Below are positions 41,541-46,812 of a stretch of DNA of 64,000 nt, in pieces. The stretch is taken from NCBI GenBank assembly GCA_014378105.1, contig JACMOI010000052.1, forward strand, positions 1 through 64,000. Direction: 5' to 3'. Every line of letters begins with the position of its first letter. Position 1 is the first letter of the stretch. The notes below the pieces were generated by a model. It made no database searches. It saw nothing but the letters and a program-made list of their open reading frames with translations, and was not told the origin of the DNA. A program made the position numbers and the translations under genes. Origin of the DNA: Pseudopedobacter sp. GTDB taxonomy: Bacteria; Bacteroidota; Bacteroidia; Sphingobacteriales; Sphingobacteriaceae.

Positions 41541-41640
41541 TTCATACTGTTGGTCTATTCCACTCAACACGGCATAGGCTTTGCTTTTCTAAATAAATTT
41601 AAATCAATCAACATTATTTAGAATTTGAGGTTATTAGTTT

Positions 41641-42669
41641 ATGTCCAAGAAGCCCCTTTTAGAATTTAACCAGAATGGGATTTACTGTCCTGAAGGTGAT
41701 TTTTATATTGATCCCTGGCGACCCGTTAAAGATGCGGTGATTACTCATGGACATAGCGACCATGCTAAATGGGGACACCAAAAATATTTAGCACATACAC
41801 TTTCAAGAGAGATTTTATATTACAGGTTGGGGGAAATCAATCTGGAAACTATGGATTATGGGGAAAGTCGAACCAAAAATGGCGTGACAATTACTTTTTA
41901 TCCTGCTGGTCATATTCCAGGTTCAGCTCAAATTAGGCTTGAATACAAAGGTGAAATATGGGTGGTTTCTGGAGATTACAAAACTGAAGATGATGGTTTA
42001 TGTACGCCCTTTGAACCTATAAAATGTCATTCATTTATATCGGAATGTACTTTTGGAATGCCAGTTTATACATGGCAGCCGCAGGCAGAGATTTTTAAAG
42101 GCATTAACGATTGGTGGGCTCAAAATAAATCGGAAGGAAAAACTGCTGTTTTAGCAGGATATTCTTTAGGAAAAGCACAACGGATTCTTCAAAATTTAGA
42201 CTTAAACATTGGTAAAATTTATGCTCATGGGGCAATCCAAAATTCTAATGAAGCTTTAATCAGAAATGGAATAAAACTAAATCCTTCCAAACTAATTACC
42301 GCAGCAACCACCAAAGAAGAATTAAAAGGAAATATCGTCATCTGTCCTCCATCGGCCATTGGTACACCATGGATGCGAAAGATGAATCCTTATAGTTTTG
42401 GCTATTGCTCGGGTTGGATGGCGATTCGTGGGGCGAAAAGAAGAAGAGCTGCAGACAGAGGTTTTGTACTTTCCGATCATGCCGATTGGGATGGATTAAT
42501 TTCGGCAATAAAAGCGACTGAATGCGAAACTGTTTACCTCACACATGGCTACACTGCCTCTTTTAGTAAATATTTAAGAGAAATGGGTTATGATGCAAGG
42601 GAAGCGAAAACTTTATATGGGAATGAGGAGGAGAATGAAATAGGAGAAGCGAAGGGAGAAATTTCATGA
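41641..42669 (+). CDS. Ligase-associated DNA exonuclease (metallo-beta-lactamase fold)
   Basis: VITHGHSDHAKWGH; AGHIPGSAQIRLEY; SDHADWDGLI; gene trio context. Confidence 0.92.
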   Translation: MSKKPLLEFNQNGIYCPEGDFYIDPWRPVKDAVITHGHSDHAKWGHQKYLAHTLSREILYYRLGEINLETMDYGESRTKNGVTITFYPAGHIPGSAQIRLEYKGEIWVVSGDYKTEDDGLCTPFEPIKCHSFISECTFGMPVYTWQPQAEIFKGINDWWAQNKSEGKTAVLAGYSLGKAQRILQNLDLNIGKIYAHGAIQNSNEALIRNGIKLNPSKLITAATTKEELKGNIVICPPSAIGTPWMRKMNPYSFGYCSGWMAIRGAKRRRAADRGFVLSDHADWDGLISAIKATECETVYLTHGYTASFSKYLREMGYDAREAKTLYGNEEENEIGEAKGEIS

Positions 42670-44288
42670 AAGCCTTTGCTCAACTTTTCCTTTCTTTAGA
42701 TGAAACCAACAAAACCAATGAAAAGGTAAAGGTGATTAAAGATTATTTGCTAGCTGTATCTGATGAAGATAAAATACAGATGTTGGCTCTTTTTACTGGC
42801 AGAAAACCTAAAAGACCCATCAACTCTACAAAATTAAAAGAATGGGCTTTAGAATTGAGTCAAATCCCTGATTGGCTTTTTAGAGAAAGTTATGACGTAG
42901 TTGGTGATTTAGCCGAAACGCTTTCTCTACTATTACCTGAATCAAAAAATCGGGAAAATAAAAGTTTATCTGCCTGGATTCAAGAAATCAATAAAATTAG
43001 AAAGCTTAACGATGAGTTTAAAAAATCCTGGTTGCTAAATTCGCTAAACAAAATGACACGACAAGAGAAGTTCGTCTTCTTTAAATTACTGACTGGTAGT
43101 TTTAGAGTGGGTGTTTCGCAAAATTTGGTTGTCAAAGCCCTATCAGAAATTGCAAATTTAGAACCCGCTACACTTACACACCGTATCATGGGAAATTGGG
43201 AACCCGCTACTTTTTCTTATCAGGATTTAGTTGCCGAAGAAGATGGAACATCGGATATTTCCAGACCATACCCATTCTTTCTCGCTTACCCCATTCAGGA
43301 AACTTCAGAAAAGCATAAAACCATAGAAGAGCTTCAAAATGAACTAGGCAATGCCGATGATTGGCAAGCTGAATTTAAATGGGACGGCATCAGAGCACAA
43401 TTGATTAAAAGAAATGATGAAATTTTTATCTGGAGCAGAGGAGAAGAATTAGCAACCGATAAATTTCCAGAGCTACATCCTTTTATAATGGATTTACCAA
43501 ATGGAACAGTGTTGGATGGGGAGATTTTAGCTTTTAAGGATAACCAGCCTCTATCATTTAATATCCTTCAAACTCGCATCGGAAGAAAAACAATTTCGAA
43601 GAAAATGTTGATTGATAATCCTGTAGCCTTTATCGCTTATGATGCGATGGAATTTTCTGGGGAAGATATCAGAAGTAAGAACCAAGAAGCAAGGCGAGAG
43701 ATTTTGCAGCAAATTCAAAACAATTCTTCCAATCAGGATATATTCAGAATTTCAGAAATTATTAAGACCAACGACTGGGATTTTTTAGCTCAGGAAAGAG
43801 AACGCTCCAGAGATTTATTAGCGGAAGGCTTAATGCTGAAAAGAAAATCGGCAACTTACCAAGCGGGTAGAAAACGTGGTGATTGGTGGAAGTGGAAAAT
43901 GGACCCTCTTTCTGTAGACGCAGTGATGATTTATGCGCAAAAAGGTCATGGTCGCAGAGCAGATTTATACACCGATTATACTTTTGCCGTTTGGGATGGC
44001 GATAAATTGGTACCTATTGCCAAAGCCTATTCTGGTTTAACAGATGCTGAAATCAGAAAAGTGGATGCGTTTGTAAAGCGTAATACCTTAGAAAAATTCG
44101 GACCCGTAAGAACTGTAAAAGCCGAGCTGGTTTTTGAAATTGGCTTTGAAGGAATCAACCGTTCCTCTCGACATAAATCCGGCGTAGCCTTACGCTTTCC
44201 AAGAATCTTACGTTGGAGAACCGATAAGAAAATGGAAGAAGCCGATACCTTGGAAAGTTTAATCGCTTTATTGCCTGATGAAAACTAA
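42666..44288 (+). CDS. ATP-dependent DNA ligase
   Basis: EFKWDGIRAQLIKR (KxDG motif), GTVLDGEIL, AEGLMLKRKSATYQAGRKRGDWWKWK. Confidence 0.95.
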   Translation: MKAFAQLFLSLDETNKTNEKVKVIKDYLLAVSDEDKIQMLALFTGRKPKRPINSTKLKEWALELSQIPDWLFRESYDVVGDLAETLSLLLPESKNRENKSLSAWIQEINKIRKLNDEFKKSWLLNSLNKMTRQEKFVFFKLLTGSFRVGVSQNLVVKALSEIANLEPATLTHRIMGNWEPATFSYQDLVAEEDGTSDISRPYPFFLAYPIQETSEKHKTIEELQNELGNADDWQAEFKWDGIRAQLIKRNDEIFIWSRGEELATDKFPELHPFIMDLPNGTVLDGEILAFKDNQPLSFNILQTRIGRKTISKKMLIDNPVAFIAYDAMEFSGEDIRSKNQEARREILQQIQNNSSNQDIFRISEIIKTNDWDFLAQERERSRDLLAEGLMLKRKSATYQAGRKRGDWWKWKMDPLSVDAVMIYAQKGHGRRADLYTDYTFAVWDGDKLVPIAKAYSGLTDAEIRKVDAFVKRNTLEKFGPVRTVKAELVFEIGFEGINRSSRHKSGVALRFPRILRWRTDKKMEEADTLESLIALLPDEN

Positions 44289-46812
44289 AGGCGAACAAAT
44301 CGTCCAAAACTGGTATAAAACCAAGAAATGGCAACAATTTCCTTTTCAGCAGGAGATGATGGAGTCTTACCTTTCGGATTTTTCAGGATTACTAAATGCC
44401 CCAACTGGTAGTGGTAAAACTTTCGCTATGTTTTTGCCTTTTCTGGCAGATTATATCAATCAACATCCAGAAGATTATCAGCACAAAAAAAATAATGGGC
44501 TACAACTTTTATGGATTACTCCACTGAGAGCTTTAACCAACGATATCCAAAAGGCCATGCAATCCGTAGTGGATGATTTAGAAATTCCTTGGAAAATTGG
44601 AGCTAGAACGGGGGATACTTCCACTGCTGATAAACAAGCCATCAAACGTAAACCACCAGAAGTTTTATTGACTACGCCAGAAAGTTTACACCTCATGATT
44701 GCTCAAAAAGAATATCCTAAAACCTTTGAGCAGCTGCAATTGGTGGTAATTGATGAGTGGCATGAATTATTAGGAACAAAACGTGGTGTTCAGGTAGAAT
44801 TAGGGTTATCCCGTTTGAAAAGCTTGAAAAGTTGGAAGTCCGAAGACCGAAGACCGAAGACCAATAATTCTTCACATCTAACATCGGACCTCAGACTTCT
44901 GACCTCAGACCTCAAAATCTGGGGCATCAGCGCAACAATTGGAAACTTAGAACAAGCAGTACAGGTTTTGTTGGGACCAAATTTTCCGGAAGAAAAAACC
45001 AGAATGGTAAGGGCGAAAATTGCTAAGAAATTAGATATTCAATCCATCATTCCAGAAAATGTAGAAAAATACAGTTGGGCTGGGCATATTGGGTTGAAGC
45101 TTTTACCCGAGGTGATGCAAATTGTTGCAGACAGTAAAACCACTTTAATCTTCACCAATACCAGAGCACAATCAGAAATTTGGTATCATGCCATTTTAGA
45201 CAGTTATCCCGAATATGCTGGCGTCATTGCCATGCACCATGGCTCCTTAGATAACGAATTACGGAGTTGGGTAGAACAAGCTTTACATGCTGCCATTTTA
45301 AAGGTGGTGGTTTGTACTTCTAGTTTAGATTTAGGTGTCGATTTTCGTCCTGTTGATACGGTGATTCAAATCGGTAGTCCCAAAGGTGTCGCCCGCTTTA
45401 TGCAAAGAGCGGGAAGAAGTGGACATTCGCCCGGAGCTACCTCCAAAGCTTATTTTGTGCCCACTCATTCCTTAGAATTGTTAGAAGGAGCTGCTCTAAA
45501 ATATGGTATCAAGAACGAAATATTCGAAAGTCGCGATCCTATTTTATTGGCTTATGATGTATTGATCCAGTATTTGGTGACACTAGCTGTTTCTGAGGGC
45601 TTTAGAGCCGAAGCAACTTATAAAGAAATCATCAGCACTTTTGCTTACGCCGATTTATCTCGAAAAGAGTTTCATGATATTTTAGAATTCATCTCTCGTG
45701 GCGGAAAATCTTTAAGTGCTTATGACGAGTTTTTAAAAGTAGAAATCGAAGAAGGTTTGTTTAAAGTAAATGATAAGCGAGTAGCTATGCGGCACCGCTT
45801 AAGCATGGGAACCATTACGGGTGATGTAAATATTCGAGTGAAATTTCAGAGTGGTGGCAGTTTAGGTTCGGTGGAAGAAAGTTTCATTTCGAGGTTGAAA
45901 GTTGGAGACACTTTTTGGTTTGCGGGCAGGAGTTTAGAGTTTATCCAACTCAAAGAAATGACCGCTTATGTGAAAATCAGTAAAAATAAAAAAGGGCAAA
46001 TCGCCAGCTGGAATGGAAGTAGAATGCCTTTATCTTCTCAATTATCGGCTGTTTTTAGAGAAAAACTAGATGAAGTTTCGATGGGATTAGAAGAAGATGA
46101 AGAAATTGTCGCTTTACGTCCACTTTTCGAAAGGCAAATGCAGCAGTCACATCTGCCAAATAAGTTTGAATTTTTAATGGAAAAAGTAGAAACCAGAGAT
46201 GGCTTTCATTATTTCTTTTTCCCATTTGAAGGTCGATTAGTCCATGAGGGTTTAGCCTCTCTTTTTGCTTTCAGAATGACGAAATTAAAAAGCGCTACCT
46301 TCTCTATTGCCATGAATGACTATGGTTTTGAATTGTTATCGGATCAACCTATACCTATTGAAGAAGCAATTGGCTACAATGTGTTTGGCGAAGAGAACCT
46401 GGCTAATGATCTGTTAAACAGTCTTAATGCTGCGGAGATGGCCCGCAGAAAATTTAGAGATATTGCTAGTATTGCCGGACTGGTATTTCAGGGATATCCG
46501 GGCAAAAATATAAAAAGCAAACATTTACAGGCTTCTTCGGCATTATTTTTTGAGGTGTTTAAAGATAATGAGCCCAATAATTTACTGCTTAAGCAAGCCT
46601 ATGAAGAAGTTCTTTACCTTCAGTTGGAAGAAGTGAGACTAAGAAATGCGCTCCGCAGAATAAATGCATCAAAAATTATTATAACTCAGATTAAAAGTCC
46701 TTCACCATTTTCTTTTCCAATACTGGTAGATAGTTTAAGGGAAAAGGTTACAAGTGAAACATTAGAAGACAGAATAAAAAAGATGCAGTTAAGCTACACA
46801 AAGCTTAAATAA
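44278..46812 (+). CDS. Ligase-associated DNA damage response DEXH-box helicase (Lhr-like)
   Basis: APTGSGKTFAMFLP; IDEWHELLGTKRGVQVELGLSRL; WGISATIGNLEQA; QRAGRSGHSPG; overlaps ligase ORF. Confidence 0.95.
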   Translation: MKTKGEQIVQNWYKTKKWQQFPFQQEMMESYLSDFSGLLNAPTGSGKTFAMFLPFLADYINQHPEDYQHKKNNGLQLLWITPLRALTNDIQKAMQSVVDDLEIPWKIGARTGDTSTADKQAIKRKPPEVLLTTPESLHLMIAQKEYPKTFEQLQLVVIDEWHELLGTKRGVQVELGLSRLKSLKSWKSEDRRPKTNNSSHLTSDLRLLTSDLKIWGISATIGNLEQAVQVLLGPNFPEEKTRMVRAKIAKKLDIQSIIPENVEKYSWAGHIGLKLLPEVMQIVADSKTTLIFTNTRAQSEIWYHAILDSYPEYAGVIAMHHGSLDNELRSWVEQALHAAILKVVVCTSSLDLGVDFRPVDTVIQIGSPKGVARFMQRAGRSGHSPGATSKAYFVPTHSLELLEGAALKYGIKNEIFESRDPILLAYDVLIQYLVTLAVSEGFRAEATYKEIISTFAYADLSRKEFHDILEFISRGGKSLSAYDEFLKVEIEEGLFKVNDKRVAMRHRLSMGTITGDVNIRVKFQSGGSLGSVEESFISRLKVGDTFWFAGRSLEFIQLKEMTAYVKISKNKKGQIASWNGSRMPLSSQLSAVFREKLDEVSMGLEEDEEIVALRPLFERQMQQSHLPNKFEFLMEKVETRDGFHYFFFPFEGRLVHEGLASLFAFRMTKLKSATFSIAMNDYGFELLSDQPIPIEEAIGYNVFGEENLANDLLNSLNAAEMARRKFRDIASIAGLVFQGYPGKNIKSKHLQASSALFFEVFKDNEPNNLLLKQAYEEVLYLQLEEVRLRNALRRINASKIIITQIKSPSPFSFPILVDSLREKVTSETLEDRIKKMQLSYTKLK
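44838..44913 (+). repeat. 7-bp-periodic repeat insertion inside helicase CDS
   Basis: Left arm gtccgaagaccgaagaccgaagacc (44838-44862) and right arm cggacctcagacttctgacctcagacctc (44885-44913). Confidence 0.8.

Follow-up and report, generated by a model that had tools for sequence, protein, structure and literature searches.

A palindromic heptad repeat in frame within a loop of ligase-associated helicases of the Sphingobacteriaceae

The stretch of 64,000 nucleotides from Pseudopedobacter sp. analysed here (the window) contains a helicase gene which carries, close to one of its conserved motifs, repetitive DNA with a seven-nucleotide period. This raises the question of how such a sequence came to lie within a conserved enzyme and of what it does there. 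An earlier note on this DNA had described the repeat as an in-frame insertion of an unusual kind, which could act as a phase switch through changes in the number of its units. The features of the locus are collected in Table 1.

Table 1. Positions in the window of the helicase gene, its operon neighbours and the parts of the repeat.
Feature	Coordinates	Strand	Basis
Ligase-associated exonuclease (TIGR04122), same operon as helicase	41641..42669	+	Profile score above cut-off
ATP-dependent DNA ligase (TIGR04120), same operon as helicase	42666..44288	+	Profile score above cut-off
CDS of the host gene, ligase-associated DEXH helicase (TIGR04121, Lhr-Core-like), 844 aa	44278..46812	+	Profile, Pfam and Foldseek matches
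Motif II (DEWH, residues 159-162), upstream of the insert	44752..44763	+	Homolog alignment
Left array, GTCCGAA GACCGAA GACCGAA GACC (core GWCY + GAA)	44838..44862	+	Sequence, TRF, Markov simulation
Central spacer, 24 nt, AATAATTCTTCACATCTAACATCG	44863..44886	+	Sequence
Right array, GACCTCA GACTTCT GACCTCA GACCTCA, roughly complementary to the left array	44887..44914	+	Sequence, TRF, fold
Motif III (SAT, residues 218-220), downstream of the insert	44929..44937	+	Homolog alignment

The host protein scores 1079 bits against the TIGR04121 profile, above the NCBI cut-off of 850, and comprises the Pfam domains DEAD, Helicase_C, WH_Lhr and DEAD_assoc. Its C-terminal part (46350-46812, residues about 690-844) is much more distant from the nearest relatives than the rest: it matches the homolog of genome G014 (locus L026) at 59%, compared with 88-94% for most earlier segments. 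Another lineage matches it equally well or better, L041/L042 reaching 62-63%. The gene may be recombinant, or the contig chimeric.

The two loosely complementary blocks of period 7 noted near the SAT motif were recovered from the sequence, by TRF and by folding. TRF delimits four copies with 95% match at 44835-44862 and four copies with 80% match at 44887-44914. The left block reaches a lag-7 score of 20/21, where the maximum in 60 third-order Markov simulations of the window was 17, and it is the sole place in the 64 kb, with low-complexity sequence masked, that scores at least 18. The repeat strand folds with a z-score of -3.3 as RNA and of -1.7 as DNA. The reading frame stays open throughout the repeat, which encodes residues about 187-212, so that a location in the conserved helicase core with the frame unbroken is confirmed.

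The loop between ...SRLK and LKIWGISAT has five residues in homologs outside the family and 30 in the window protein, which agrees with the earlier view of the segment as an insertion. In the AlphaFold2 model of the helicase, with an overall pLDDT of 78.3, the values fall below 50 at residues 188-209, placed between a helix (168-189) and a strand (213-218) that leads into motif III. On the basis of this low-pLDDT stretch, the insert is most likely a flexible, disordered and solvent-exposed surface loop, and it would be positioned away from the paths of DNA and ATP. The best PDB match of the model by Foldseek is the Lhr protein of Mycobacterium smegmatis (5v9x, TM 0.72).

Helicases were gathered from 60 related genomes and from 80 named GTDB contigs, and the loop was read in each of them. 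Most of the Sphingobacteriaceae homologs examined have a repeat-bearing loop at the same site, with differing repeat sequences; an in-frame intragenic copy, described before as unusual, is thus the rule in this family. In Pseudopedobacter, Mucilaginibacter and some others the loop measures 13-54 residues, and period-7 arrays, mostly with complementary arms, fill it in these two genera and their relatives, with near-constant occupancy in Mucilaginibacter. For the 56 distinct loops with 12 or more residues, the identity was 0.49 at lag 7, 0.45 at lag 14 and 0.40 at lag 21, against about 0.25 at other lags. The complementarity of a loop's own arms averages 20.8, compared with a permutation mean of 13.5 and a maximum of 16.1 for arms taken from different species (2000 reshufflings), and in roughly a quarter of the species the RNA fold z-score is below -3. 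With regard to the sequence of the cores, the GACC type is found in the window genome and in G008, G010, G012 and G013, the AAGC type in G006, G014 and G017, and the AGTC/GACT and CAGT/ACTG types in Mucilaginibacter; a GCGGGGA/CCCCGCT (GCGG) type is also seen among the homologs. A few species have arms of two different types (L102, L133) or a plain short loop, and the loop is short or degenerate in several family members (L065, L079, L040, L082, L087). In Mucilaginibacter sp. OK268 (L132:6116-9019), the same helicase loop contains, in frame, a DUF559 nuclease-like ORF of about 150 residues (Pfam PF04480), which is bordered by hairpins of the CCCTCTCC/CCCCTCGGGGAGGG type. In the helicase of Longitalea arenae, a second pair of heptad arrays is present in the C-terminal half (L125:11858-11949), besides the loop array.

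The reading frame is kept in each of the 56 distinct long loops, an in-frame stop being found in one homolog alone (a TAG inside the G006 array), and the close pairs that were compared (G008/G010 and G066/G090) have helicase arrays of equal length. In G006, a 97%-identical relative (L054/L258), the stretch from the flanking region to the helicase apparently lacks the exonuclease and ligase genes (window counterpart 41600-44276); together with the TAG within the array, this absence suggests a possible decay of the operon.

Although the site is fixed, its content changes. With loop types assigned by hand and a helicase tree of 50 rows computed without the loop, at least 25 type changes were counted, and the tree restricted to the 20 rows of the GACT and CAGT types contains eight switches between the two. 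By eye, the centre may be alike where both arms differ in type, as in L066 compared with L060 and in the window compared with L026; the window spacer partly resembles that of G014, whose arms are of another type. In the window genome, GWCYGAN heptads are also present on contigs C21, C41, C62 (twice), C73, C82 (twice) and C162, which places the helicase array in a dispersed family, and related arrays are common in Pedobacter-like genomes, as the earlier note stated. The CAGT, GACT and GACC patterns were counted in 42-43 genomes, with reversed patterns as controls. The log ratio of GACT to CAGT counts differs with the loop type (Mann-Whitney p = 0.001), and the GACC counts track it as well (p = 0.006). 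Since the species are related, phylogenetically independent pairs were also compared; they point in the same direction (about 4 to 0.3) without reaching significance (median p 0.125). The loop type tends to follow the abundant repeat family of the genome.

The anatomy of this repeat class was characterised in 1.6 Mb of Bacteroidota flanks, where 97 arrays were found at lag 7 and between 0 and 18 at the other lags from 4 to 13. In all, 103 arrays were detected, for the most part in M. flavidus and in the metagenome-assembled genome (MAG) of a sister species. Of these, 69 are intergenic, and an inverted partner lies within 150 bp of 34 arrays, compared with 1 in the control; beyond 200 bp, a search for autonomous versions with their arms far apart around a gene gave no excess of inverted partners. 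Some arrays are nested inside the loop of another element. The intergenic arrays have no preferred orientation relative to the surrounding genes (22, 15, 18 and 14 in the four arrangements), and no Rfam family or model matched the repeats. In the AGTC/GACT family of M. flavidus, the best sampled of the families, AGTC recurs every 7 nt in runs whose number of cores peaks at five (19/30 runs), followed by a centre of mostly 11-26 nt and by runs of GACT, the order being AGTC...GACT without exception (13 to 0). Neighbouring 3-nt spacers are alike at 0.366, against 0.369 at random within the family (28 arrays, 139 units), and spacers facing each other across the arms are alike at 0.33, against 0.40 at random, the arms pairing at the cores. 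As the cores were preset by the search pattern, these results speak to spacer independence, core number and orientation and not to core conservation, and most of this anatomy comes from one genome pair. The helicase loops of M. flavidus and M. phenanthrenivorans have the exact form of five plus five cores, intact.

The turnover of these elements could be followed between M. flavidus (G066) and its sister MAG 341R (G090), which are syntenic at about 92% identity. At roughly a quarter of some 28 aligned intergenic sites, categorised by eye, the two species carry different element types; a few elements are present in one species only, about eight sites agree in type but differ in units or sequence, and about ten show no change, as is true of the helicase array. 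Two intergenic arrays differ by 14 bp, that is, by two units, one of them with homogenised variants. A near-empty site is not tidy and has no clear target-site duplication, and the arms of the elements are inverted.

Two enzymes were considered as mobilisers of the arrays. In the surroundings of 30 Y1_Tnp loci there are 2 arrays per 100 kb, whereas the Mucilaginibacter flanks have about 10 over the same length, and none of these transposase genes is flanked by heptad arrays; RAYT was therefore rejected as the mobiliser. DUF559 was rejected as well because arrays are not enriched near DUF559 loci, despite the ORF within the OK268 loop.

Period 7 was also encountered inside other ORFs. The arrays in the histidyl-tRNA synthetase (HisRS) gene of M. 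flavidus (L063:8303-9676) were rejected as a second intragenic insertion since homologs are equal in length there, and period 7 within an ORF does not by itself prove an inserted element. Near residues 72-95 of HisRS there is a separate variable loop with a weak period 7 in 5/18 species, and in several genomes, including that of the window, this region holds an insert that differs between species, measures about 60-90 residues and lacks heptads (L361, L363-L367). Additionally, a CCTTTTA heptad array encodes the likely signal peptide (MQKPFAFYLLPLALL) of a 169-aa ORF (L063:5474-5980) that is kept in the sister species, and an AAAACTC heptad array encodes the N-terminus of an acetyltransferase-like protein (PF07786; L073:5371-6483).

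The preferred reading, to which we give a probability of roughly 60%, is that the helicase gene carries, as a passenger translated in frame, one copy from a class of short palindromic repeats spread over the genome, lodged in a tolerant disordered loop. An element would consist of two arrays of short cores at an exact 7-nt spacing, inverted around a short centre, and elements would spread and be exchanged as non-autonomous repeats through some machinery. Copies would persist in the helicase loop because selection there appears to ask for just an open frame without a stop, so that the frame stays and the type shifts, by drift or by replacement, along with the repeat families of the genome. In its best reading, such a passenger mode would work like that of the Rickettsia palindromic elements and unlike a slipped-strand phase switch. 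Against it stand the absence of array enrichment around the candidate mobilising enzymes, of which none was found to fit, the lack of a clean target-site duplication, the non-significant pair test on hand-assigned loop types and the observation that the copies have no common centre or spacers, unlike ordinary MITE copies; the near-constant occupancy of the Mucilaginibacter loop could also be compatible with selection for the element. As for the phase switch, in which the gain or loss of a 7-nt unit toggles the helicase on and off, the seven-nucleotide unit is no multiple of three and G006 has a TAG within its array, but this proposal of the earlier note finds no support and is very improbable: the long loops are in frame in all species but one, close pairs have identical or equal-length arrays, which are short and imperfect (4-5 diverged units), unit changes were seen in intergenic arrays only, and the G006 stop is a nonsense codon and no frameshift, in a genome whose operon may be decaying. 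A contingency (phase-variable) locus was rejected, as the loops examined include no out-of-frame alleles, one TAG excepted.

It is unlikely, albeit less so, that the array is a heptanucleotide microsatellite grown locally in an unconstrained loop by replication slippage and hairpin-templated correction, with no mobile element involved. Heptamers have been reported to outnumber any other kind of short tandem DNA repeat in the intergenic regions of prokaryotes, with 'no clear clue' to their function (PMC6344855), and the two-unit differences and homogenised variants between sister species, as well as the loops with arms of unlike type, would fit such an origin. However, greater likeness of adjacent units, expected of a microsatellite, was not seen in the one family tested, where spacers are independent both between neighbours and between arms, which argues against simple slippage; the run lengths peak at five cores instead of declining, unit-number variation was found in two intergenic arrays only, and the same families occupy dozens of loci per genome. 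Selection for the element itself appears distinctly improbable. Here, a factor that binds DNA or RNA sequence-specifically would recognise each core, about five such 4-nt sites following one another every 7 nt in an inverted pair, and the helicase copy would regulate the ligase-exonuclease-helicase operon or its mRNA. The recurrence of cores in phase with freely varying spacers, the intact helicase copies of M. flavidus and M. phenanthrenivorans, the loop occupancy in Mucilaginibacter and the strong RNA fold in many species are in favour of it, and are countered by the short or degenerate loops of several family members, the difference of the core between sister species, the indifference of intergenic arrays to gene orientation and the lack of an Rfam match. 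A broader proposal, which we regard as doubtful, is that of a Bacteroidota element class set by a grammar and not by a sequence (an inverted pair, about five 4-nt cores, a 7-nt pitch and free 3-nt spacers), whose core could be exchanged for another in the two arms without loss of the site; this would imply a cognate factor that reads or writes the cores and maintains the helicase copy.

A fixed, protein-coded site across a bacterial family allows the turnover of heptamer repeats to be traced, since one repeat type gives way to another, often in both arms, without a change of frame or insertion point. Furthermore, the pattern of core and free spacer makes concrete tests possible of what binds or copies the cores and of whether the helicase needs the loop. 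Annotators should be aware that peptides of this kind in conserved enzymes come from the translation of repeats.

Among known systems, the TAACTGA heptamer repeats of Beggiatoaceae, Cyanobacteria and some Bacteroidetes, which are mostly intergenic and without an assigned function (PMC4679880), share with the present elements the heptamer spacing and the mostly intergenic location. They are near-perfect direct repeats of one heptamer, whereas the elements described here combine a core with a free spacer, occur as inverted pairs, have many different cores within one genome and include an in-frame insertion. The likeness to REP/REPIN sequences with their RAYT transposases (PMC3116915, PMC2817692) lies in the dispersed inverted pairs, the several families per genome and the largely intergenic location. 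Unlike them, heptad arrays did not accompany the Y1 (RAYT) transposase genes of the 30 loci examined. REP/REPIN sequences have a conserved REP palindrome and are not known to have a 7-nt period. The short tandemly repeated repetitive (STRR) heptamers of heterocystous cyanobacteria are 7-nt tandem units between genes, as the heptad elements largely are; we know of no inverted core-spacer architecture in them. A classical MITE would be marked by common terminal inverted repeats, a target-site duplication and empty sites; in the heptad elements, inverted arms and one near-empty site lacking a clear duplication were observed. Finally, the Rickettsia palindromic elements are small palindromes of many families that lie in frame within conserved housekeeping genes and are reportedly accommodated by the folded protein (Ogata et al. 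2000, 2002, reviewed in PMC10969869), and the helicase repeat is likewise palindromic and in frame within a conserved ORF. The Rickettsia elements are about 150 bp long, encode an internal peptide that is conserved and are without cores at a 7-nt spacing, whereas the heptad copies, in another phylum, share the core alone, with differing centres and spacers, and change their type at one fixed site.
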